DNA from: Proteobacteria bacterium UBA1847
GTDB taxonomy: Bacteria > Pseudomonadota > Gammaproteobacteria > Steroidobacterales > Woeseiaceae
DNA: 10,595 nucleotides
Reading direction: 5' to 3'
Assembly: GCA_002338605.1 (NCBI GenBank)
Contig: DDIP01000363.1
Span: 8,398 to 18,992 of the forward strand
The translations under genes were made by a program, and so were the position numbers. Positions 1 through 10,595 of this stretch are shown here, piece after piece (position 1 is the first letter of the stretch; each line of letters starts with the position of its first letter). The notes beneath the pieces are model-generated. The model was not told the origin of the DNA. It saw only the letters and a list, made by a program, of their open reading frames with translations, and ran no database searches.

Positions 1-372
1 AGCCTGGAGGCGGTCGCCGGAACTCTGCAACCGAAGCCTATGCGCGACTGGTCCGACCGCAACCGCGAAGGTGCCTTGTCTGAGGTAGCCAAGCTCGGGC
101 GCCGCTTCAGGCAGGCCGAAGCAGTGGCGTTGATGCGCGACCGAAAATCAAACACGGAAGCGATCGCTCTCATTGTGGGCGTCGACCCGAAGCAGCCGCC
201 AATCCTCCAGAGTTTCGAACTCAGCGAAAACGAAAAAAAGACTGCGAGCAAGCTTGCGGACCAGATCATACGGAATCTTGGCCAAAGTGAACACGGGCAC
301 GAGCTCGTGCTGGCGGCGCTCGCTCGGGCTGTTGCGGCGCTCACCGACAATATGGACAAGATCGAAGCATGA
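1..372 (+). CDS. C-terminal fragment of an unidentified protein, upstream partner of the PP-loop gene
   Basis: The reading frame is open from the first base of the window, so this is the 3' end of a longer gene: 123 residues are visible before the TGA at 370-372. The ATG at 40 is only an internal methionine candidate, and no Shine-Dalgarno sequence is obvious before it. The visible part is soluble, rich in Arg, Glu and Ala, and probably helical. A basic stretch (residues about 14-47) is followed by a helical tail with the segment ELSENEKKTASKLADQII. There is no membrane segment, no Cys cluster and no catalytic motif that I recognise. Its stop overlaps the start of the PP-loop gene (ATGA at 369-372), so the two are almost certainly cotranscribed and translationally coupled. 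A DndB/DGQHR-like protein would fit such a position, and a DWS-x-R-N segment near the fragment's start faintly recalls DndB C-termini. That resemblance is too weak for a name. Confidence 0.7.
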   Translation, partial: SLEAVAGTLQPKPMRDWSDRNREGALSEVAKLGRRFRQAEAVALMRDRKSNTEAIALIVGVDPKQPPILQSFELSENEKKTASKLADQIIRNLGQSEHGHELVLAALARAVAALTDNMDKIEA

Positions 373-1205
373 CCAACGAACGACACATTCTCGGGATATC
401 GGGCGGCCGCGATAGTGCAGCCTTGGCCGTCTATATGCGCCAGAACCACCCCGACATCGACATGGAGTATTTCTTCACTGACACAGGGAAGGAACTACCA
501 GAGGTCTATGACTTTCTGAACAGGCTCGAGGGGTTCCTTGGCAAGCGGATCAATCGGCTGAACCCAGATCGGGATTTCGATTTCTGGCTGGCGGAGTATG
601 GGCATTTCCTACCGTCGGCCAAGACCCGTTGGTGCACCCGGCAGCTAAAGCTGAGACCGTTGAACCTGTGGCTGCGTGAGGACCTGGATAGGGGTGTCGT
701 GGTTCACTCCTATGTCGCAATCCGTGCAGATGAACCAAATCGGGCCGGCTACAAGTCACAGCATCCAAACATGAAGGTGAGGTTTCCTCTGCGAGACGCC
801 GGCATCGACAAGGCTGGTGTGGTCGATTTGCTGAAAGACACGGATATCGGCGAGCCAGAATACTACCGCTGGCGCTCGAGGTCAGGGTGCACCTTCTGCT
901 TCTTCCAACAGAAGATTGAGTGGGTGCGGTTGATGGAAGAGCATCCTAAGGCATTTGAAGAAGCCCGGGCCTATGAGAAGACGGCTGAGGAACACGGCTC
1001 CCCCTTCACCTGGAGCGATGGTGAAAGCCTAGACGACCTCGCCAAACCTGAACGTGTCGAGGCGATCAAGGCGGACTATGAAAAGCGCCGGGCCCGCGCC
1101 ATGCGCGCCGTGCGCCCCAACCCACTGTCAGCGCGCTCCGAGCCGTCGATCGACGAGATTTTTGGTGTCTTTGAAGGAAATTCGTGTGTTGTTTGCCACA
1201 AATAG
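369..1205 (+). CDS. PAPS-reductase-family PP-loop protein, DndC-like
   Basis: This 278-residue cytoplasmic protein belongs to the adenine-nucleotide alpha-hydrolase (PP-loop) superfamily, PAPS reductase branch. The PP-loop is SGGRDS at residues 11-16, followed by FTDTG at 36-40, the second nucleotide-site signature. TRWCTRQLK (86-94, Cys89) matches the segment typical of DndC and related sulfurtransferases. Two further Cys pairs, C174/C177 (SGCTFC) and C273/C276 at the extreme C-terminus, could with Cys89 hold an Fe-S cluster or zinc. DndC adenylates DNA for phosphorothioation; small relatives of this kind are common in defence islands and prophages, mostly with unknown substrates. The ATG at 369 is chosen because it overlaps the preceding stop (ATGA) and the PP-loop follows at the usual distance. 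No DndD, DndE or cysteine desulfurase gene is visible, so DNA sulfur modification is possible but not shown. An assimilatory sulfate-reduction role looks unlikely, because no cys genes surround it. Confidence 0.88.
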   Translation: MTNERHILGISGGRDSAALAVYMRQNHPDIDMEYFFTDTGKELPEVYDFLNRLEGFLGKRINRLNPDRDFDFWLAEYGHFLPSAKTRWCTRQLKLRPLNLWLREDLDRGVVVHSYVAIRADEPNRAGYKSQHPNMKVRFPLRDAGIDKAGVVDLLKDTDIGEPEYYRWRSRSGCTFCFFQQKIEWVRLMEEHPKAFEEARAYEKTAEEHGSPFTWSDGESLDDLAKPERVEAIKADYEKRRARAMRAVRPNPLSARSEPSIDEIFGVFEGNSCVVCHK

Positions 1206-1224
1206 TCTCCAGGCGCACTAGCAC

Positions 1225-1284
1225 ATGGATTCGCGGCAAAGTGCTCCGGCAAAGGGCGAGAAAGGCAATACTTGTTTAGAGTAA
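1225..1284 (+). other. Short ORF (19 codons) overlapping the ATPase start, possible leader or lost N-terminus
   Basis: An ATG at 1225 opens a 19-codon frame ending at TAA 1282-1284, thirteen bases inside the following ATPase gene but in another frame. The peptide begins MDSRQSAPAKGEKGNT. It may be chance, a short coupled leader that delivers ribosomes to the TTG start at 1272, or the original N-terminus of the ATPase separated from it by an indel or sequencing error. GHKL proteins of this type often carry some residues before the F-x-V-x-x-R-T segment, which makes the last option worth noting. An AGG at 1211-1213 is a weak, distant ribosome-binding candidate. Confidence 0.25.
1258..1265 (+). 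promoter_or_regulatory. Ribosome binding site supporting a TTG start
   Basis: GAGAAAGG lies 6 nt before the TTG at 1272. In this frame there is no ATG, GTG or other usual start between the upstream stop TAG (1203-1205) and 1272, so this site together with the TTG defines the start of the dual-GHKL ATPase gene. A TTG start suggests modest translation. Confidence 0.5.
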
Positions 1285-3620
1285 CGGCAAGAACGGTTTT
1301 GGAACTCGGCTCCGAGCTTATCAGTTCGGACGTGATCGCCTTTTATGAGCTTATCAAGAACGGGTTTGACGCGCGAACCGAGAACGGCGTTGAGGTACGC
1401 TTTGATGTTGTGCTTGGTCTACGAAGCTTCAGCTCGCTTCGCAATCGCTCGGAAGAGCAAGAAGTCCCTCTGCAAAATCTCAAGGAGCGTTGTCTGTCCG
1501 AGCTGAACTCAGCCGCCACAACGATCTATGACCAAGCACGGAAGTTGATTGCTGCCGCAGATTCTTATGATCAACTTTCTAAAGCGTTGAACGAAGTCTA
1601 TTCTCTCAACACGATCCGCGTCATTGATACCGGCACTGGGATGTCGGCGACGGATCTGGAAGACAAGTTCCTGGTCATCGGTACACCCTCACGAAAGATT
1701 GCCGTAGAGAAGTCCGTTGCCGAAGGGCAGAAAAAGCCGGATTTTCTGGGTGAGAAGGGCTTGGGCCGGTTGTCAGCAATGCGATTGGGCGGAACGCTCT
1801 CTATCGAAACCGCGCGAAAGAAAGACACGAAACTCAATCACCTATCGATCGATTGGCGGGCGTTTGAAGACGTCAATAAGATGATCGAAGATATAGATAT
1901 CAAGGCAAGTACCTCTGGCGCAAAGCCATCGCCAAACTACTCCGGAACTATTCTTACTATCTCAGAGCTAACATCCGATTGGAACGAAGGCCGGATCAAA
2001 CAGTTGGCCGCTGCAGATTTTGCTTTTCTGACCAATCCCCTTGCAGATAGCAGAAATCGACCACGAATTGCATTGGTGTGGAATGGTGAGCGCATCCCAG
2101 TTCCTATGCTTGGAAAGAGCTTTCTCAAGCTCGCCCACGCCAGCATTTGGGGGGCATACACGTTAGGAGAAAGCGGACCCCAGCTTACCCTGAACTTGAA
2201 ACTCAGAGAGTTAGGTTTTGAGCACCCAGTTGTCGAAGAGCAGTTAAGGTTCGGGGAGAAGGACCTGTTTGCAATGATACGCGGCCGGGACGAGGCGATT
2301 CCAGAGGATGCGCTGACTGACTTGGGTCCATTCACCTTCGAGGCGCATTGGTACAATAGGCGCCGCGTTAAGGCGGAGGGTGGGATGGATCGCGAGCAGA
2401 TCCTGAAGCTACACCGTCAATGGACCGGGATCAGAATGTATCGCGATGACTTTCGGGTCTATCCGTATGGGCAAGAGAAGGATGACTGGCTCGGACTCGA
2501 TCGTGAAGCTCTTATGGCCAGAGGATACCTCCTCAACAAGATTCAGCTTGTCGGTCAAGTCGACATCAGTCGAAGCGCGAATCCCGGTCTCGTAGATCAA
2601 ACCAATCGGGAGGGCCTGAGAGAGACCCACGAACAGCAAGCGATGCTGAGGATTGTTCAGTTCTCAATTCAAGACCAATTGCGCAACGCGATGAGGCGTG
2701 CGGAAACCAAATACAAGGCTAAACGTGCAAAACCAGTGGAAGCAAAGACGGAGATCGCAAGGCTCGAGACGAGAGCGCAGAAGGCAATCAGCAATTTGCG
2801 TTCAGTCACGACCAACCAAGAACGCGAAACGATAGAAGAACTACAACAAACATTGCTCGAGCTGACGGAGCTCGCAAAGATCTTGAGAGAACGTAACGCC
2901 GAGGTCGAGGGCGATGCGAAGCTAATGCAAGACATGGCCGGCATTGGACTGCTGGTTGAAATCGTCGCTCACGAACTCGCACGCACCTCAGAGCATGCTT
3001 TGGAGCGCATTCGGGAAATTCGAAGCACGGCAACGTCGGACGAGGTCGTAACAGGCTTGGATGGGTTGGCGGCTTCGATGAAGAGCATTCACAAGAGACT
3101 GCGCATTCTGGATCCATTGAGTGTAAGCGGACGACAGGCACCCGAAACCTTTTCGCTCACCCAGCTCATCAGCGAGACCCTCGAGGATCATCAGACCCAG
3201 TTCAATAGGCACGGAATTCATCTCAAGTATGAGCCGCCAAAAGACCGCTTCACGACTAAGACCGTCAAAGGCTATGTCGTGCAGATATTCGAGAACCTAC
3301 TTGCGAATTCTGTCTACTGGTTGAGTCTTGAAAAGGAAAAGTCGCCTCTGTTCGAACCTCAGATCAGTGTCAGCATTGTCGGTTCTCCGACCAGAATCAT
3401 TTTTTCTGACAATGGCCCGGGGATCGACCCTGAACATAAAGATCGCATCTTTGATATGTTCTTCTCCTTAAAAGAGAGCAAGAAACGGCGCGGCTTAGGT
3501 CTTTACATCGCTAGGGCCAACGCCGTCGCAGCAGGTGGATCACTCGAGCTACAAGAGGAGCCGGTAAATGATTTCGGGCGCCTGAATACATTCGAGTATT
3601 GTATTTCGGAACAAAGCTAA
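1272..3620 (+). CDS. Dual-GHKL protein: Hsp90/MORC-like ATPase fused to a histidine-kinase-like module
   Basis: This 782-residue soluble protein carries two ATP-binding modules of the GHKL fold. The first has its N-box at residues 26-34 (ELIKNGFDA), G1 at 119-124 (DTGTGM) and G2 at 160-166 (GEKGLGR), the pattern of Hsp90/MutL/MORC-type ATPases. Residues about 230-455 form a middle region, possibly S5-like. A charged, probably coiled-coil stretch spans about 465-550. The second module looks like a sensor kinase: an H-box-like AHELA with His567, an N-box with Glu674, Asn675 and Asn679, G1 DNGPGI at 713-718, an F-box near 727-731 and G2 GLGL at 741-744. No signal peptide or transmembrane segment is seen, so any sensing is cytoplasmic. 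The TTG start is preceded by GAGAAAGG at 6 nt and puts the first helix right at the N-terminus. The gene follows the PP-loop gene by 66 nt and overlaps the receiver-domain gene (TAATG), which suggests His567 could donate phosphate to that partner. Phosphotransfer itself is inference. Confidence 0.85.
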   Translation: MFRVTARTVLELGSELISSDVIAFYELIKNGFDARTENGVEVRFDVVLGLRSFSSLRNRSEEQEVPLQNLKERCLSELNSAATTIYDQARKLIAAADSYDQLSKALNEVYSLNTIRVIDTGTGMSATDLEDKFLVIGTPSRKIAVEKSVAEGQKKPDFLGEKGLGRLSAMRLGGTLSIETARKKDTKLNHLSIDWRAFEDVNKMIEDIDIKASTSGAKPSPNYSGTILTISELTSDWNEGRIKQLAAADFAFLTNPLADSRNRPRIALVWNGERIPVPMLGKSFLKLAHASIWGAYTLGESGPQLTLNLKLRELGFEHPVVEEQLRFGEKDLFAMIRGRDEAIPEDALTDLGPFTFEAHWYNRRRVKAEGGMDREQILKLHRQWTGIRMYRDDFRVYPYGQEKDDWLGLDREALMARGYLLNKIQLVGQVDISRSANPGLVDQTNREGLRETHEQQAMLRIVQFSIQDQLRNAMRRAETKYKAKRAKPVEAKTEIARLETRAQKAISNLRSVTTNQERETIEELQQTLLELTELAKILRERNAEVEGDAKLMQDMAGIGLLVEIVAHELARTSEHALERIREIRSTATSDEVVTGLDGLAASMKSIHKRLRILDPLSVSGRQAPETFSLTQLISETLEDHQTQFNRHGIHLKYEPPKDRFTTKTVKGYVVQIFENLLANSVYWLSLEKEKSPLFEPQISVSIVGSPTRIIFSDNGPGIDPEHKDRIFDMFFSLKESKKRRGLGLYIARANAVAAGGSLELQEEPVNDFGRLNTFEYCISEQS

Positions 3621-5512
3621 TGGATATCCAAAAAAACGGCGTTGTTACCGCAATAATTGTCGATGACGGCGTAGATCCGTCACCCCTGGTGTCCGACCTT
3701 GGCAATGTGGATGATGAATGGTCGGTTTTCTGGGCTGATCTGACAGCCGAGGACAATGTGCTGCTCGATGAGATCTATCCCGAGCACAAGGATCTCGATG
3801 CGGAAGCACTGATCAAAGACCAGGCCTTCGTGACGCTCATGTTTGAACGACGGGGGGATTTCTCTGGTAACGCTCTCGACAAGGTGTTTGAGGCGTTCCT
3901 AGCAAATCAGCAGCAAGTTCGGAAGTTCATCGACGCCGCGACCGCGAAGCTTGATGGCATCGGCATGAAAGTAAGCGAAGTCGGTAGGGACTTTGTTGCC
4001 GCTGCAAAAGATGCCGATCTTATTATTGTCGATCTGTTTCTTGGGTCTGAGCAAGCGGAGGGGGATAAGGAGCGATCCATCAGCGGCTTGAAGGACGTTT
4101 TGAGTGATCGAGCCGACAACCCGCCTATGGTGATTTTGACCTCTGCACACAATAGCCTCCATGACCTTCGCCATGAGTTTCGCGACAAGACAGGCCTACT
4201 GGCATCCGGCTTCAGGACCATCAAAAAGTCGGAAATCGAAGAAGATGGGCACCTCGAGCAACTTGTCTTCGAATTATCCGAGCATCGAGAAGATGCACTG
4301 AAGCTGTGGTCGTTCCTGAAATCCTGGGAGACCGGCATCTCGCAAGCTCTACAACGCGCACAAAACGAGGTTCGGAAGCTCGATCTCGAAGACCTTTCTC
4401 ACGTAAAGCAAATGCTATCGTCAGAAGGTGTGCCTTTGGGCGGCTACATGGTCGATATCATGGATGCAGTGCTCGCACACGAACTGGAGGCAGAACAAGG
4501 CGTTATCGACGCGGCGATTGCGCTCAACGCACTTGAAGCTACGTCCTTTCCGCCAAATTCAATCACGGGGAACAAGAATACGCTGGAAGTTGTTCGTAAG
4601 ACGCTGTTTGTAAATGAAAAAAGAAGGCAACTTGATCCGAGTAGCGGCTTTCAAGTTTCCTTGGGCGACATCCTTGCCATTTCACCGGACGCGGACGGGC
4701 CCGATGTTCGGAACGGCACAATTTTCCAGGGCGAAGAGCGACGTGTCTTCCTCGTACTGACGCCTTTGTGCGACCTTGTGCGCGATCCACCGAAGGCCAA
4801 GCGTGTCCTATTGCTCGCAGGCACCTTTCACGATCACGGGGCGCTCAATTTCAAAGCTGTAGCCAATGGAGTCCATACCCCTGTCCTGGATCTGAATGCG
4901 GAATTGCGCGGTATCGTTAAATGGGACCTGAAGCATATCGAGACGATTGGGAGCGACGCGCTCACCAATCTTCTGCCGCCGCACGGCTCGTGTTTTGTCC
5001 CTGCGAGGTTGAAGGAGCATACGGCAATTGCGCTGCAACAAAAGTTACTCAGTGACCTGGGTCGGGTTGGAGAACTGAAAACCATGCCATCGATGTTCCC
5101 GGTTCGGTGTGTAGTGTATTTCACGAACAACCACCGCGAACTTGTCCCATTGGCTACGAACCTCGATGGAATTCTGGTAGGTGAGAGCTCTAATCGGCTC
5201 GCCTTCGACGCTGCGCACAGGTTTGACTTTATGAAAGAGGTCCGGGCGGCAATCGCAGAGGTTTACGAAACTAGCAGGGCGAAGCTCCAATCGACCTTGG
5301 CTCCAGGCGCGTTGGACGCTCTGTTCACAACGGGTGTTGATTACAAGTCAGATGCCAAGCCGAAGCCCTGCAAAGTGCCGGGTGATGGTGCGAGCGTCGA
5401 AATTGGCAAGATCATAATCAACGAATCCGCTCAAGACACCTTTCAGGATGTCAACCAACATCAGGGAGCCGGTTTGATCTTCGAGTTAAGTGAAGAACTA
5501 GCGAATGGCTAG
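3620..5512 (+). CDS. Receiver-domain-like protein with a large uncharacterised C-terminal region
   Basis: This 630-residue cytoplasmic protein has an N-terminal receiver-like fold. IIVDD (12-16) would supply the acidic pair Asp15/Asp16, LIIVDLFLG (134-142) the acceptor Asp138, ILTSA (172-176) the conserved Thr/Ser, and FRTIKKS (198-204) the conserved Lys. Between the first and third strands there are about 120 residues instead of the usual 35-40, so an insertion of some 80 residues (about 35-125) interrupts the domain. After residue 205 come helical segments to about 335. Then a beta-rich region follows with VFLVLTPLCDLVRD (376-389), whose CDL motif I have an impression of from other defence-associated proteins but cannot name. 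There is no helix-turn-helix, GGDEF, EAL or HD output domain. The ATG at 3620 is preferred to the TTG at 3599 because it forms a TAATG junction with the kinase-like gene; GGA sits 9 nt upstream. The likely role is phosphorylation-dependent partner or effector of the upstream protein. Confidence 0.8.
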   Translation: MDIQKNGVVTAIIVDDGVDPSPLVSDLGNVDDEWSVFWADLTAEDNVLLDEIYPEHKDLDAEALIKDQAFVTLMFERRGDFSGNALDKVFEAFLANQQQVRKFIDAATAKLDGIGMKVSEVGRDFVAAAKDADLIIVDLFLGSEQAEGDKERSISGLKDVLSDRADNPPMVILTSAHNSLHDLRHEFRDKTGLLASGFRTIKKSEIEEDGHLEQLVFELSEHREDALKLWSFLKSWETGISQALQRAQNEVRKLDLEDLSHVKQMLSSEGVPLGGYMVDIMDAVLAHELEAEQGVIDAAIALNALEATSFPPNSITGNKNTLEVVRKTLFVNEKRRQLDPSSGFQVSLGDILAISPDADGPDVRNGTIFQGEERRVFLVLTPLCDLVRDPPKAKRVLLLAGTFHDHGALNFKAVANGVHTPVLDLNAELRGIVKWDLKHIETIGSDALTNLLPPHGSCFVPARLKEHTAIALQQKLLSDLGRVGELKTMPSMFPVRCVVYFTNNHRELVPLATNLDGILVGESSNRLAFDAAHRFDFMKEVRAAIAEVYETSRAKLQSTLAPGALDALFTTGVDYKSDAKPKPCKVPGDGASVEIGKIIINESAQDTFQDVNQHQGAGLIFELSEELANG

Positions 5513-5515
5513 TTC
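5495..5515. terminator. Perfect hairpin at the convergent junction, possible bidirectional terminator
   Basis: GAACTAGC at 5495-5502 and GCTAGTTC at 5508-5515 form a perfect 8-bp stem with a 5-nt loop (GAATG). The right arm contains the TAG stop of the receiver-like gene. Only 17 nt separate that gene from the end of the opposite-strand nuclease gene, so the hairpin is well placed to end transcription in both directions. It is only half G/C and no T-tract follows on either strand, so it is not a textbook Rho-independent terminator. It could also act as a 3'-end stabiliser. Confidence 0.45.
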
Positions 5516-5529
5516 AATGGATGGCTGCG

Positions 5530-6471
5530 CTACCCGGAAGAAATGGTTCGGCCCTTGACCAAGACTTCTTGGCCAACCTCTATTCTATACTGCTCCGGAA
5601 AGAAGTGCATCATCCATTGCTTGAGAATTCGCCAGGCGTCAGTCGGACCGATCATTGATGACGCATCGATATACTCTGCGATCAGCTCGGCCGCCTGAGA
5701 ATCCGAAATCCCTGAACTGCTGGCAGAAACCACTTTTTGGACGACTTCCAACTTCTGGAGTCGATCCGCAACGTACTCCAGGAACTGTTCCTCCGGGTAG
5801 CCTTCGGGCGGGCCCAGTGTTCTCAAATCGCGTTGTGCGAACTCGAAGGCCGACCGGACCATCTTTGCCTCGTCAAGCTCGCCGGTATATACCTTGAATA
5901 GCCGTTCTGGCGACGGGCAGAGGGGTATCCATCGAAAACTCGGATCATCGTCGTGCTCAACATCGATCGAGGTTATCTTTGGGCGCTGAGCCGCTAGGTC
6001 TGCGGCCTGGTGCGCGATCTGATCACGCAGTTCGGTCGTCACTGAGACGCAGCTGCTCATTAACGATGCTTCCCATGCCTGGAGCTCATGTCGGCTCATA
6101 TCTAACTCAACAAGAAGTTCGAGATTGGTCGGGAGACGCCAACCAAGCGCTCGCCCGGTTAGGTTAGCGGAGCCGAGGAGACAAGACTGGTCGGCCCTGA
6201 AGAATTTGGCATGCAGGTTTGGGTGCCTCCAAAGCTGCGCGTTCGCGCGATCGGTAATGACCTCGAAGATCTCCAAGTCACAGACACCGTCTACGATATC
6301 TTCGGGTCGCCAACGTGTTATGCAGTCGATATGGAGCCCTGCCGAGATTGGGATGGCGGCCAATACCCGCTGGAGCGCATCGACCTTAATGAAGGGCGCA
6401 ACGAGGACGACTCGCTCTTTCGCCGATGACACTAGTTTCAGCAGCTGGTCGCCCAGCATCTCACCCGCCAT
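5530..6471 (-). CDS. Phospholipase-D-family (single HKD) protein, probable nuclease
   Basis: This 313-residue protein contains one HKD motif, LHAKFFRAD, with His87, Lys89 and Asp94, followed by LLGSANLTGRA (98-108) with Gly100, Ser101 and Asn103. A TNLELLVEL stretch (115-123) completes the usual core. PLD-family nucleases with one motif per chain, such as Nuc and BfiI, dimerise to build the active site, and the same is inferred here. Residues about 145-313 form a non-catalytic helical C-terminal region I do not recognise, possibly for binding the partners. The ATG at 6471 is chosen over a TTG at 6474 because it overlaps the stop of the MORC-like gene (TGATG) and has GAGGA six bases upstream. 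The gene closes the leftward operon. Its company of a helicase and an ATP-driven clamp points to DNA cleavage rather than lipid hydrolysis; cleavage of RNA is an alternative. Confidence 0.85.
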   Translation of the reverse strand: MAGEMLGDQLLKLVSSAKERVVLVAPFIKVDALQRVLAAIPISAGLHIDCITRWRPEDIVDGVCDLEIFEVITDRANAQLWRHPNLHAKFFRADQSCLLGSANLTGRALGWRLPTNLELLVELDMSRHELQAWEASLMSSCVSVTTELRDQIAHQAADLAAQRPKITSIDVEHDDDPSFRWIPLCPSPERLFKVYTGELDEAKMVRSAFEFAQRDLRTLGPPEGYPEEQFLEYVADRLQKLEVVQKVVSASSSGISDSQAAELIAEYIDASSMIGPTDAWRILKQWMMHFFPEQYRIEVGQEVLVKGRTISSG

Positions 6472-8312
6472 CAATCATCCTCGCCATCGTCGAGGAAGAA
6501 CCGGGTCATCTTGCCCCACTCTTGACGCATGTCCGAGAGGCGTTGCTTGTGCCTGACTTCTTCCATTTCGTAGCGAGCCCAAGCCGAAAACACGATGCGT
6601 AGTGTGTCCGAAGCCATGTGTACGCGGTCGAGCAGTTCCTTCTCGGTATCTTCTTCTGTGTCCGGGTTCAGCGCTCTCACCAAGTTATCGTAGAATGGAT
6701 GGTTGGAATTGAAGATAACGTTGGTGACACCGCCTTGGACGCTCTCCACGTTGAAGAACGCATAGCCTTCCATGGCTTTCTCCAGGAAAGCGACCTTGCG
6801 CTTTCTCGTAAGGATGGCGTCAGCAATGGCTTTGGCGACGTCGTCGGGATAGTGCTTGTCGTCCTTCAAATCGTCTTCATAGGCATCGCGGTCATCGGCT
6901 CCGAAATCCTCGGTGTCTCCTGGGGTCTCATGTCCTTCGTCTGCACGTTGGCGGAACTTCGAGGTGACGGTGTCTTCCACGCCTGGCTCTTCGTGACGCT
7001 TGCGACCGCCAGTACTTCGCGTGCCTTTCGTCTGCTGTTCTGTTCTTTTCCTCAGTTGGGTGATCTGTTCCCGAATGTGCTCGACGATAGGGATTAGGAG
7101 CGCCCGCGGGTCACCTTCGCTACTCGCTCGTTCAATGAAAGAGGAGCGGCTTTCATTCTCTTCTGCGTCGGCCTTCCAATCATATTGGGCCAGCTGCGAA
7201 AAGATCGTCGCACTTTGCTTGTTGTTCGTTACACCGAAGATTTCGTCGAGCGTGGCGGGGAATTCGACCTCAGCTCCCCACCATCGTTCCGTGGGGTCAT
7301 AGCTGTTGGTCCAAGATGTATCCAAATCGAGTTCACGACCCTCTCGAACAATCGAAAGGCCGAGGTTCTTCATGGCATGTTTGCCGTACGGCTTTGAGCC
7401 GCGGTTCAGCCCGTCATCAGGCACAGTCTCTGGTTTGGCCCAACTAAACCTGACGAAGACTTTATGCTGCTTGCCTCCAAAATCGATTGTGAACTCTTCG
7501 TCGTTCTCGCCCCAACGCTGAAACATCGGAACCTTGTCAAAAGGTTCGGGAGTGGAGGAGTTCGGCATGAGGTAGAGGGGATCATTGACAACCGCCAACC
7601 TTCGGCCGGTGTTCCCACCCTCTTCGACCCGAACGAGGTGAATGGCGACACGGCCATCGTTAATGAACTTGCGATACATCCGGCCGATGATCGCCTCGGT
7701 ATTTCGCAGGGTCGCTTCAGCGCCTCGCCATGTAAGTCGATACTCTTCAAATCGCGACCAGACAACGAGTGTACCGGACGTCCCCAAAATCTCGGACCGT
7801 TCGCGCCATTTGGCGGGAACGGGTGAAGGAGTTGGCGGAGGCACCCGATCTTTCACACCACTTTGAATGTCAGCGACATCCAGATAGGAATGAATTGCGT
7901 TGTCCGGACCGTTCGTCCAAGTCCAGACATCCAAGCGGCGGCATTGCGAAATCGAAGAGTTTGGAAGTCCCATGCCGAACCGTCCAATGCCAGCTCGATC
8001 CTCCAGGTGAGTGCCGTTTCCAAACTGTAACGCGATGGCCAATGTTTGTGCGGACATCCCATTGCCGTTGTCGATGGTACCGATCTCTTGCAGGCGAAGA
8101 CGCTGCTGAGAATTCACCTGCTCGTATTTCTCGACACAGATGAGCTCGACTTCACTAGCATCAGCCTGAATCGAGTTGTCGATCAGCTCTGCGAGTGCGT
8201 ATGCGGTATTTCGATACCCACTATCGCGCATCGCTTTGACGGCGAGTTCCGGTGGAATAATGAATCCGGACTCAGCGGCCCCATCTTCAACAATCTCGTT
8301 CATTCCAAACAT
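6471..8312 (-). CDS. MORC/Hsp90-like GHKL ATPase
   Basis: This 613-residue cytoplasmic ATPase shows the full GHKL signature: N-box AELIDNSIQAD (41-51, Glu42 as general base, Asn46 for Mg2+), G1 DNGNGM (81-86) and G2 GIGRFGMG (108-115). Residues about 220-370 look like the S5-type second domain of MORC, MutL and Hsp90. They end in FGVTNNKQS (359-367), which recalls the Asn-Lys-Gln segment of eukaryotic MORC ATPases; Lys365 could be the lysine that reaches the ATP phosphate. A low-complexity charged linker (about 420-490) separates this from a helical C-terminal domain (about 490-613) with an acidic tail. Members of this family dimerise on ATP binding and act as clamps. The gene overlaps the helicase gene by 26 nt, and its stop overlaps the nuclease start, so the three products are probably made in fixed ratio and work as a complex. 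The ATG at 8312 is preferred (GGGA close upstream); the one at 8303 is an alternative. Confidence 0.88.
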   Translation of the reverse strand: MFGMNEIVEDGAAESGFIIPPELAVKAMRDSGYRNTAYALAELIDNSIQADASEVELICVEKYEQVNSQQRLRLQEIGTIDNGNGMSAQTLAIALQFGNGTHLEDRAGIGRFGMGLPNSSISQCRRLDVWTWTNGPDNAIHSYLDVADIQSGVKDRVPPPTPSPVPAKWRERSEILGTSGTLVVWSRFEEYRLTWRGAEATLRNTEAIIGRMYRKFINDGRVAIHLVRVEEGGNTGRRLAVVNDPLYLMPNSSTPEPFDKVPMFQRWGENDEEFTIDFGGKQHKVFVRFSWAKPETVPDDGLNRGSKPYGKHAMKNLGLSIVREGRELDLDTSWTNSYDPTERWWGAEVEFPATLDEIFGVTNNKQSATIFSQLAQYDWKADAEENESRSSFIERASSEGDPRALLIPIVEHIREQITQLRKRTEQQTKGTRSTGGRKRHEEPGVEDTVTSKFRQRADEGHETPGDTEDFGADDRDAYEDDLKDDKHYPDDVAKAIADAILTRKRKVAFLEKAMEGYAFFNVESVQGGVTNVIFNSNHPFYDNLVRALNPDTEEDTEKELLDRVHMASDTLRIVFSAWARYEMEEVRHKQRLSDMRQEWGKMTRFFLDDGEDD

Positions 8313-9939
8313 CTTCCCAGTTGCAGAAAGCGTCGGCCACGTCTCCGAAGCCGTGCATTTCAGTATCCGTCACCGTGACGATCTCTGAGGTTTCATTTCC
8401 CCCAGCTTTTACGCCTCGCGTAGCCCGGCCCACCATTTGGCTGTAGAGAACCAGAGATTTGGTTGGGCGGGCAATGATGGCCGCGCTCGTTTGCGGTGCA
8501 TCAAAGCCGGTTGTGAGAACGCCATAGTTGAACATCACAATAGGTTCTGGCGCCTGGCTCTTGAAGCGTCGAATAGCCCGTTCGCGAGCTGCCGGAGGAG
8601 ATTCTCCGGTGACGACAAGTGCTTCAGTGCCCCGTGCGAGCATGATGGCTGCCAGCATCCTGGCGTTGGCAACCGATGGGGCAAAGACAATGACGCGGCG
8701 ATGGGACGACACGAGTTTCTCGCACTCTGCAATAATCCTGAGGTTTCTTTGTGTGCTTTGACCTAGGCGCTCCAGAACGCTCCCCGGCACATCGATCGCC
8801 TGTGACAGGCCCTGCATGTCTTCGTGCGATAAATCGAGGCCGGCCTGCACGTTCAGTGTCCGGAAGCGCGGACGAGCAAGGTAACCCTCGTCCATCAGGT
8901 ATGTGACCGGGTCGGGGTGGCCCTCGATTTCCAACATTACCTTTTCACGACCGAAGAACTCGGAGAGCTCTTCATCTTTGCTCAAATCATCCCAGGTTCG
9001 TCCCGGAGTGGCCGTCAGGCCTAGCAGACGCGTCGTCGCCCGTTTTGTTGCCAGGGCATCTAGAACGGAGCGGTATGTTGGGGCGATTGCTTGGTGTGCC
9101 TCGTCGATGACAACCAAAGACACCCGATCAGCCAAGGTGAGCAGATCGTTCACTGCGTTCTTTTCCAACGCGGACATCTTTCCCAGGCCGGCGACGACGA
9201 GCCCGTCCCTGGCGTTAGTGAGATCGACACGTTTGTTTCCCCAAAGCCGCCAAAGCCCGACATCCCTGTTGCCAAGGAAGCGCCACGACTTTTGAAACTC
9301 ATCGGCTGCTTGATCGAGAAGCTCAATGTTCTGTGCGAGCCATACGACTAGTGTCGGCTCACTGGCGCTCAGGTGCGATCCTACGAGGTGCATTGCCGTA
9401 CGTGTTTTTCCTGCGCCTGTCGGCATGTGCAGGACACCACGGTGGGGACCTTCGAAGAGCATCCGTTCAGTGCGCCTTGCAGCCAATCGCTGATGCTCAA
9501 AGAGCCCATAGCCGACGGGGGCGCGATCATTTCCTGGAAGCTGCGCCCCTGGAGCGGTCGGGTCGTCGACGACACCAAAAAAGGAAAGCAAGGCTGGGAG
9601 GTTCTCTGCGTCCGAGGCAAGGTTCAGTGCATCATCGAAAGGGTTTCGCCCGGCTGGAGTGCCGAGTTTCGTGCAAAGCTCACGCGCTTTCCTTAGTGGC
9701 ATCAGAGAAATTACGGCGTCGCGCAACGTTTCGTTCATCAGCGTCTCGGCAGGATCCAACATGTTCACTGCCAGCTCCGCCAATTTCTCTGACGTGCTGA
9801 AACCCGGTTCCAACCCATCCATAATGTCGAGCATTTCGTCAGGAAGAAGGGCTTTGACTCTCCCAGGCTTCGCCAGGCGTAGGAGCTTGGAAAATGCAAG
9901 ACCCGGCGAGTCCAGATCAATGTCTGTATCGGGTGACAT
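8287..9939 (-). CDS. SF2 DEAH-box helicase/translocase
   Basis: This 550-residue protein has the motifs of a superfamily 2 helicase of the restriction-enzyme/RecG-like type. A Q-like GLFEHQ lies at 145-150, Walker A MPTGAGKT at 172-179 and Walker B DEAH at 279-282. LTATPGRT (308-315) is motif III, IVFAPS (417-422) motif IV, and TTGFDAP (476-482) motif V. QMVGRATRG (501-509) is motif VI with Arg505 and Arg508. The first 130 or so residues are a helical region I do not recognise, perhaps a target- or partner-binding domain. No nuclease or methylase domain is fused, so cleavage would fall to the PLD protein two genes downstream. The ATG at 9939 is the only possible start, since an in-frame TGA lies at 9958-9960. 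AGAGGA at 9953-9958 is 13 nt away, longer than ideal. It is the first gene of the leftward operon and would translocate on DNA using ATP. Confidence 0.9.
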   Translation of the reverse strand: MSPDTDIDLDSPGLAFSKLLRLAKPGRVKALLPDEMLDIMDGLEPGFSTSEKLAELAVNMLDPAETLMNETLRDAVISLMPLRKARELCTKLGTPAGRNPFDDALNLASDAENLPALLSFFGVVDDPTAPGAQLPGNDRAPVGYGLFEHQRLAARRTERMLFEGPHRGVLHMPTGAGKTRTAMHLVGSHLSASEPTLVVWLAQNIELLDQAADEFQKSWRFLGNRDVGLWRLWGNKRVDLTNARDGLVVAGLGKMSALEKNAVNDLLTLADRVSLVVIDEAHQAIAPTYRSVLDALATKRATTRLLGLTATPGRTWDDLSKDEELSEFFGREKVMLEIEGHPDPVTYLMDEGYLARPRFRTLNVQAGLDLSHEDMQGLSQAIDVPGSVLERLGQSTQRNLRIIAECEKLVSSHRRVIVFAPSVANARMLAAIMLARGTEALVVTGESPPAARERAIRRFKSQAPEPIVMFNYGVLTTGFDAPQTSAAIIARPTKSLVLYSQMVGRATRGVKAGGNETSEIVTVTDTEMHGFGDVADAFCNWEDVWNERDC

Positions 9940-10155
9940 GGTCTGCTCGCTGTCCTCTCATTCTTTCTTTCAGGTTTGTTGGAGAAGTTATGCCACATTT
10001 TGGTGCTGGCCTGCTATGCCAGTAAGACGAAGCTCCAAACTATTCCTAGGGTTAGGTTGTGGCTTAGAGGAGTCTGTGGGCTGAACGCTGGGCTTCTTCG
10101 TCATCCAGATGCTGAAAAGCTCCGAACGGCATCCGCAGTTCTGGGAAAGGCGCGG
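9940..10155. promoter_or_regulatory. 216-bp intergenic region, presumed promoter of the helicase-MORC-PLD operon
   Basis: This is the largest non-coding stretch in the window and the only place for a promoter private to the leftward operon. I see no convincing sigma-70 -35/-10 pair on the minus strand. It contains an inverted repeat CTGGC-N7-GCCAG at 10006-10022, a possible operator. The heptamer TATGCCA occurs twice in direct orientation, at 9989-9995 and 10015-10021, and its second copy overlaps that inverted repeat. A weaker GATGC...GCATC pair lies at 10108-10133. No clear terminator for dnaE2 is visible, so readthrough from dnaE2, which is often SOS-controlled, is possible. Confidence 0.4.
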
Positions 10156-10595
10156 CTAGTGGAAATCCCGGCTCGGAAACAGCTTCTTGGCCTGTTCGCG
10201 CGGATGCCGGGCGGTTGATCCTGCACCACTACGCGTGGGTTGGTGCGCTGCCTCGGCCTGACGATCACCTGCGTCTGTCAGTGGCCGCCCGAGGCTTGAG
10301 AGCATCGGCGAGATGTCCTCGATCCGCTCGGCAATCACATGAACGACCTGTCCTTCGCGTTCGACCTTGCCGGTAACGCGCAGGAGCCGCCCGGCGATCA
10401 CCGCCTTGCGGAAGGTCTCGTAGACCCGGCTCCAGACCACCACGTTGGACACGCCGGTCTCATCCTCGAGCGTCAGGAAGATCACGCCCGATGCCGTGCC
10501 GGGCCGTTGCCGCGTGATGACGAGACCCGTCACGGTGATGCGCCCTGTGGCCCGATCCAGCCGTTCATGCGGCAGGCTTTCCGGCAGGCGCGGCC
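10156..10595 (-). CDS. dnaE2: Error-prone DNA polymerase DnaE2 (ImuC), C-terminal part
   Basis: The frame runs off the right edge of the window, so only the last 145 residues of a polymerase usually over 1,000 residues long are present. They cover the C-terminal OB-fold: GLVITRQRPGTASGVIF, then TLEDETGVSNVVVW, then an RVTGKVEREGQ strand and HVIAERIEDI. The closing FPSRDFH before the TAG at 10156-10158 is very characteristic of DnaE2. The GTG at 10533 is internal, as coding sequence continues upstream to the window edge. DnaE2 is the translesion polymerase of the SOS mutagenesis cassette (ImuA, ImuB, DnaE2), normally the last gene of that operon. It is core-like rather than part of the accessory locus, and it marks the locus's right border. 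A region between the OB-fold and the end (about 40 residues, with LTDAGDRQAEAAH) is the usual variable linker. Confidence 0.95.
   Translation of the reverse strand, partial: PRLPESLPHERLDRATGRITVTGLVITRQRPGTASGVIFLTLEDETGVSNVVVWSRVYETFRKAVIAGRLLRVTGKVEREGQVVHVIAERIEDISPMLSSLGRPLTDAGDRQAEAAHQPTRSGAGSTARHPREQAKKLFPSRDFH

Follow-up and report, generated by a model that had tools for sequence, protein, structure and literature searches.

To which system do two convergent gene blocks belong when they lie directly behind genes for DNA phosphorothioation, and do the two blocks work as one? The question is raised by a window of 10,595 nucleotides (the whole stretch of DNA analysed), which comprises bases 8398-18992 of the 18,992-base contig DDIP01000363.1 from Proteobacteria bacterium UBA1847 and is labelled locus L002. 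It holds the gene sspD, a pair formed by a dual-GHKL histidine-kinase-like ATPase and a receiver protein, and, on the opposite strand, a triad formed by a RadD-like helicase, a MORC-type ATPase, and a predicted nuclease of the PLD family (Table 1). A sequence-only reading of the window had taken both blocks for one sensor-plus-effector defence system. The present analysis suggests, with a probability of about 0.65 for this reading as a whole, that the window makes up the right-hand two thirds of a mobile Ssp cassette with nine genes. In this variant of Ssp, the triad would serve as an additional mark-gated restriction complex alongside SspE and SspFGH, and the pair would be a phosphorelay dedicated to Ssp.

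In known Ssp systems, SspABCD marks the host DNA, SspFGH causes damage to unmarked DNA and toxicity in unmarked cells, and effectors can be combined (PMC8092258). In the same source, 2,211 of 2,678 sspBCD loci (about 83%) were without sspE or sspFGH, which raised the question of whether they have other restriction partners or are orphans (Wang et al. 2021). The triad and the pair are concrete candidate partners, from several phyla, for such loci. Both are found beside Ssp in many unrelated bacteria. These add-on modules may be missing partners that have been sought, and the partner question becomes testable by module swaps on one SspABCD background.

Ssp module and nine-gene cassette

Six predicted frames reproduce the six genes of the sequence-only reading together with their overlapping start and stop codons, and the stop codons of the convergent blocks are 17 nucleotides apart. 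The first of these genes had been called DndC-like; its product scores 22 bits with the DndC model and 432 bits with the SspD model of PADLOC, and the residues of the motifs SGGxDS, WCT, and SGCxFC are kept in 54-56 of 55-57 aligned proteins. Upstream on the contig, PADLOC matches SspA (310 bits), SspB (331 bits; DUF4007 262 bits), and SspC (972 bits), the gene of the last starting upstream of the window and containing an N gap. Since SspA, SspB, and SspC are encoded upstream and SspD in the window, a full SspABCD module precedes both blocks, with adjacent sspB (DUF4007), sspC, and sspD and the cysteine desulfurase SspA. Judged by its sequence, the phosphorothioation module of the contig is Ssp, not Dnd. 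The proposed connection with phosphorothioation is thus borne out by SspABCD; as to the extent of the locus, the six genes stand, but they are not the complete set: most of the modification genes are found before the start of the window.

Two other genomes (L004 and L005) carry DNA that is 90-92% identical to bases 3257-18365 of L002, a stretch of about 15 kb with nine genes. The similarity stops on both sides, on the right at window position 9968 (L002 18365), and queries with scpB, the RES-Xre genes, and the polymerase gene gave no match in L004 or L005. The flanks of these two cassettes are unlike those of the window, and in this lineage the nine genes move as a single 15-kb unit.

Triad and its linkage to Ssp

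The active-site residues of the PLD protein are kept (His 29/29, Lys 29/29, and Asn 30/30 aligned proteins). The helicase, whose closest relative is RadD, keeps the Walker A Lys in 30 of 30 proteins, and its DEAH motif and motif VI are also conserved. In the MORC protein the GHKL ATP-binding motifs are conserved, and MORC is the nearest family among GHKL proteins; ten matches of the family profile among PDB sequences at E<=0.1 were all to MORC2, MORC4, SMCHD1, and MORC3. The S5-domain motif GhXhhpXXRhl (PMC2292703) is fitted, as judged by eye, by GLSIVREGREL of the window at 10 of 11 positions.

At E<=1e-20, MORC homologues were present in 2 of 369 genomes of the class, 3 of 107 of the family, and 6 of 398 of the phylum, the window's genome being counted each time. 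In all eight other MORC genomes (8/8) ssp genes and the helicase gene adjoin the MORC gene, as does a PLD match when a wider query set is used, and ssp genes are present in 4/4 viral contigs with a MORC match. Of 15 plasmid records with MORC, at least 13 also contain SspD, a lower bound given that 60 of 69 SspD records were listed; in three it is about 10-12 kb distant. The SspD-bearing triad plasmids span Pseudomonadota, Bacteroidota, and Cyanobacteriota, and the helicase is matched at 14 and PLD at 12 of the 15 plasmid loci.

Since the loci were mostly gathered via the pair or the MORC protein, only the phylum sample bears on frequency. There, SspD is present in 11 of 398 genomes. When the window's genome is set aside, MORC is present in 5 of 397 and SspD in 10 of 397, and all five MORC carriers have SspD (hypergeometric P = 3.1e-9, uncorrected for genome kinship); the two counts were taken as one draw because both list 398 genomes and have genome labels in common. 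Three of the five SspD genomes without MORC have SspFGH. By analogy, and from its domains, the triad is probably an Ssp effector.

Plain co-location in a defence island, with independent systems stored near ssp genes, would be in keeping with the integrases and the toxin-antitoxin genes (RES-Xre, VapBC, and AbiE) near some loci. However, the near-complete linkage over the distance of neighbouring genes across several phyla in varied order, and the occurrence of SspD in 5/5 MORC genomes against 10/397 overall, make this explanation highly improbable.

Additional genes are interposed at some triad loci. In the cyanobacterial Ssp-triad loci L033, L040, L042, and L048, two genes separate sspD from the helicase gene, one for a DndB-annotated or uncharacterised protein and one for a small protein. 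In a Roseobacter plasmid (L031), the interval from sspD to the PLD gene holds genes for a DGQHR-domain protein and a 176-residue protein. Two chromosomal sspBCD loci (L076 and L077) gave no match to SspE, SspFGH, the triad, or the pair within about 20 kb, and may hide further partners.

Kinase-receiver pair and its linkage to Ssp

In the kinase family the His of the H-box is kept in 34 of 35 and the Asn of the N-box in 35 of 35 aligned proteins, and the dual-GHKL kinase adjoins a protein with a predicted receiver fold. The latter has 630 residues; the first 145 or so of its C-terminal region (from about residue 346) are predicted to form a MazF-like barrel, and the MazF fold is recovered on the predicted structure. 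A profile comparison of this region with one PemK-like protein gave no signal.

The known HEF_HK/Response_reg_2 pair (PMC8011034) is alike in that a dual-GHKL kinase-like protein and a divergent receiver protein are adjacent beside a DNA modification system. It differs in that its partners are cytosine methylases, whereas here the partner is Ssp, and the window sequences are divergent: the window kinase scores 20.7 bits with HEF_HK, below the cut-off of 24.1, and three relatives score 28.0 (L028), 22.8 (L036), and 20.7 bits (L012). Response_reg_2 was not matched in the window receiver; it was matched in one of 42 homologues (E 0.055), and in 0/9 genomes in a six-frame search whose control also matched nowhere. 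By sequence, the pair is a divergent relative of this known pair.

Two peptide patterns derived from the receiver alignment were run against 84,980 species genomes and picked out 28 genome loci. The kinase is encoded beside the receiver gene at 26 of them (tblastn); SspB, SspC, or SspD is found in the fetched stretch of 21, and SspE, SspF, SspG, or SspH in four more (L021, L022, L025, and L027), so that an ssp gene is present at 25 of the 28. The three others are L003, whose contig ends inside the kinase gene, L030, a contig of 5.5 kb, and L006, where the receiver gene occurs without kinase or ssp genes and counts against strict linkage. Judging from record titles, the 28 loci presumably span alpha-, beta-, and gammaproteobacteria, an Akkermansia, an acidobacterium, and a fibrobacter. 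In plasmids, ssp genes lie near the receiver match in 9/9 records. Since there are near-copies among the loci (L004/L005; L010/L011/L013; L035/L052), these counts are not independent.

In one Acinetobacter baumannii record (L061), a gene of 637 residues runs convergently to sspD. Over 340 columns it can be aligned with the receiver family (hhalign E 1.8e-6, probability 90%), and kinase pieces adjoin it in separate frames. For Acinetobacter, a histidine-kinase two-component system has been noted in the Ssp gene region, with the suggestion of a possible new variant (PMC12421847).

The partner modules at the 28 pair loci are SspF, SspG, or SspH (11), SspE (5), triad genes (5), or none seen (7), with no overlap in the fetched stretches; one of the five triad-gene loci, L003, has a partial PLD gene only, and the next 9 kb match neither MORC nor the helicase. 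SspE in L010 (928 bits) and L019 (925 bits) and SspF in L052 (817 bits) were confirmed. Such a range of partners would suit a pair that is a regulator only, one that adjusts the expression or activity of SspABCD and of the accompanying effector so that marks are in place before restriction begins, and control of restriction-modification has been suggested for the related HEF_HK/Response_reg_2 pair (PMC8011034). However, no classical DNA-binding output domain was recognised in the receiver protein, which is large and has a predicted toxin-like fold, and some pairs adjoin ssp genes without another effector seen; a purely regulatory role is therefore possible, if rather doubtful.

The toxin-like fold may be read in two other ways. 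The pair could be an abortive-infection arm of its own, in which infection sets off phosphotransfer to the receiver, a MazF-like ribonuclease is freed, and growth stops, with Ssp and the triad working on DNA independently; we regard this as unlikely. Alternatively, a MORC-like kinase that reads invasion could phosphorylate a receiver-fused MazF-like toxin and so provide a fail-safe behind interchangeable SspE, SspFGH, or triad modules, a tentative idea of low probability. Most likely, the pair is a phosphorelay dedicated to Ssp, whether as its regulator or as its toxin arm.

Other genes follow the pair at some loci. Proteins of 986 and 996 residues with similar beginnings are encoded after the receiver gene in L008 (12128-15088) and L010 (12101-15091), possibly a further accessory of the pair, and in a Rhizobium plasmid (L053, 20014-23846) the pair is followed by a second response-regulator-like gene (530 residues) and a 747-residue gene without a PADLOC match.

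Triad and pair as separate modules

The triad and the pair are separate but compatible modules, each tied to Ssp and seldom to each other. Triad genes are present at 5 of the 28 genome and 0 of the nine plasmid pair loci. No MORC was found anywhere in 4/4 tested pair genomes without the triad at the locus, in a search that did find four control carriers, and no pair gene was found in the fetched stretches of the plasmid (0/15) or viral-contig (0/4) MORC loci. Gene order and strand differ among loci, and close sspD relatives (L026/L049 and L067/L078) carry different partners in the stretches examined.

Within modules, the Mantel r is 0.89 for SspB-SspD, 0.89 for SspC-SspD, 0.98 for the kinase and receiver, 0.82 for MORC-PLD, and 0.77 for MORC-helicase; across modules, it is 0.54 for receiver-SspD, 0.51 for kinase-SspD, 0.41 for MORC-SspD, and 0.29 for helicase-SspD. 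On an SspD tree with 51 rows, a minimum of 11 changes is needed for the triad label and of 10 for the pair label. The distance tests left out loci that were near-duplicate, truncated, or degraded (L003, L005, L011, L013, L025, L029, L030, L035, and L048); L005, L011, L013, L029, L035, L048, and L051 were left out of the tree, and short copies of refetched loci (L001, L047, L056, L057, and L062-L066) out of both. Every row was retained in the linkage counts.

One obligate sensor-plus-effector system made of both blocks would account for the nine genes that are near-identical as a unit in L002, L004, and L005, and for the joint occurrence of both blocks, in other orders, in L008 and L028. However, most homologues of either block are found without the other, which already contradicts this explanation and leaves it very unlikely. 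The sequence-only reading had proposed to ask whether all six genes keep company across distant species; the blocks are mostly apart, and the company of each is the Ssp genes. Its broader view of a multi-gene defence-type locus holds, and the blocks recur in distant phyla.

Several results weigh against an Ssp variant with these two modules. For the triad, the Pfam match of the PLD protein is below threshold (24.5 against 27 bits) and is missing at 3 of the 15 plasmid loci; at two of these three, L043 (9028-10107) and L049 (11807-12886), a 359-residue gene without a PLD match fills the PLD position and is possibly a replacement. A 14th plasmid (Treponema, Spirochaetota) has SspB and SspC with no SspD match seen, one of the 15 plasmids (Nocardiopsis, MORC homologue of 30% identity) has no ssp gene nearby, and in the other two SspD genomes without MORC, about 20 kb of sequence revealed neither SspE or SspFGH nor the triad or the pair. 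The linkage could partly reflect defence islands. For the pair, the MazF-like reading comes from fold prediction, where the Z was modest, and the sequence gave no signal. The receiver profile gave no match in 13 ssp-bearing genomes, eight of them triad carriers; it recovers 4/4 known carriers and misses the A. baumannii relative, and therefore divergent pairs may have escaped. Finally, the cross-module correlations exceed those of permutation (0/5000 as high; helicase 19/5000), and the labels on the SspD tree are more clustered than when shuffled (21 changes against a mean of 28.9). Therefore, part of the pattern is shared descent.

Proposed mechanism

The gene identities, conserved catalytic motifs, linkage, module exchange, and predicted receiver fold were obtained by computation; all activities and the order of events that follow are inferred. 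As is known for the family, SspABCD would write phosphorothioate marks into the cell's own DNA. The MORC ATPase may dimerise as an ATP-driven clamp on DNA, on which the RadD-like helicase would translocate or which it would unwind, and the PLD nuclease, as its domains and the tight linkage to the modification genes suggest, would cut or nick unmarked DNA. The kinase may sense invading DNA or the loss of marking, probably via its N-terminal MORC/paraMORC-like GHKL part, and would then phosphorylate the receiver Asp. In the most speculative step, phosphorylation might free the MazF-like C-terminal region, whose target would be the Ssp machinery or the cell.

Comparison with known systems

The sequence-only reading could not match the locus to a named system; a PADLOC run likewise found none for the gene combination, and no model of PADLOC-DB 2.0.0 matches the pair or triad proteins over their full length. 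SspABCD-SspFGH and SspABCD-SspE (PMC8092258) are comparable in that the same SspABCD module stands beside a separate adjacent effector, exchangeable or combinable with others; here, by contrast, the candidate effector is the helicase-MORC-PLD triad, and the kinase-receiver pair is added. SspE, SspF, SspG, and SspH gave no tblastn match on the 18,992-base contig, whose ends are open and which was the only part of the genome searched.

Restriction operons with a MORC ATPase and an SFII helicase, in a few cases with an HKD-fold nuclease domain, have been described (PMC2292703). Their partners are genes such as methylases, whereas in the window the PLD nuclease is encoded by a gene of its own and the helicase resembles RadD. 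In DndCDEA-PbeABCD, PbeA has been described as a fusion protein of an HKD nuclease with an SF2 helicase (PMC10853773), and it is the best PADLOC match of the window helicase (82 bits); in the window, unlike there, the two are separate genes, a MORC ATPase is added, Ssp replaces Dnd, and the matches include none of the other Pbe proteins. The likeness to mza noted earlier extends to the MORC-like GHKL N-terminus of MzaB (60 bits PADLOC, 72 bits NCBIfam) and no further, since the match is N-terminal only, far under the NCBIfam cut-off of 850, and no other Mza protein is among the matches. As to type 4 BREX, neither PglZ nor BrxL is among the PADLOC matches listed for the 13 proteins scanned on this open-ended contig. 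Detocs, a two-component defence system, consists of the DtcA kinase, DtcB, and DtcC with a nucleosidase effector.

The restriction branches proposed in a 2025 review are dndFGH/sspFGH, sspE, and pbeABCD (PMC12707154). The main text of PMC8011034 does not mention Ssp, Dnd, PAPS, or phosphorothio-, the text searched of PMC2292703 does not mention PAPS or phosphorothio-, and that of PMC10853773 and PMC12839542 does not mention MORC or GHKL. Apart from the Acinetobacter remark, neither the pair-Ssp nor the triad-Ssp link is described in the literature searched, whose scope excluded subscription papers and most preprints.

Features of the window and flanking genes

Table 1. Features of the window, with positions counted from its first nucleotide.
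Feature	Position	Strand	Evidence
sspC 3' end (Ssp module ATPase)	1..372	+	PADLOC SspC 39.8 bits, C-terminal end; upstream part 972 bits
sspD, PP-loop/PAPS-reductase-like sulfurtransferase	369..1205	+	PADLOC SspD 432 bits, residues 5-278 of 278
Dual-GHKL histidine-kinase-like ATPase	1272..3620	+	Pfam: N-terminal HATPase_c_3, DHp-like region with AHEL H-box, C-terminal HATPase_c
Receiver protein	3620..5512	+	Receiver domain about residues 11-236 (open reading frame counted from 3599), plus C-terminal region from about 346
PLD/HKD-superfamily predicted nuclease	5530..6471	-	PLDc_2 24.5 bits, under Pfam cut-off 27
MORC-type GHKL ATPase	6471..8312	-	HATPase_c_3 71 bits
SF2 DEAH helicase, RadD-related	8287..9939	-	RadD model 109 bits (below model cut-off); PDB RadD 84 bits
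Error-prone DNA polymerase gene, C-terminal end; flank outside cassette	10156..10593	-	NCBIfam 103 bits over C-terminal end

Farther upstream of SspABCD on the contig are a RES-Xre toxin-antitoxin pair and scpB. The RES toxin and Xre-like antitoxin genes lie at L002 2096-3225, immediately before sspA, and a similar pair occupies the same position in the Roseobacter litoralis plasmid locus L031 (75% identity; 88% over part of the antitoxin); none was found in the 1,375 bases preceding sspA in L004 and L005. After scpB, a 346-residue protein without a Pfam or PADLOC match is encoded at L002 772-1812. Ssp modules on Agrobacterium and Ensifer plasmids (L035, L037, L043, L052, and L054) are repeatedly accompanied by one and the same group of genes, encoding VapC-type toxin-antitoxin systems, an integrase, and an 'RHE_PE00001 family protein'. 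This set suggests one integrating element that exchanges its defence cargo.

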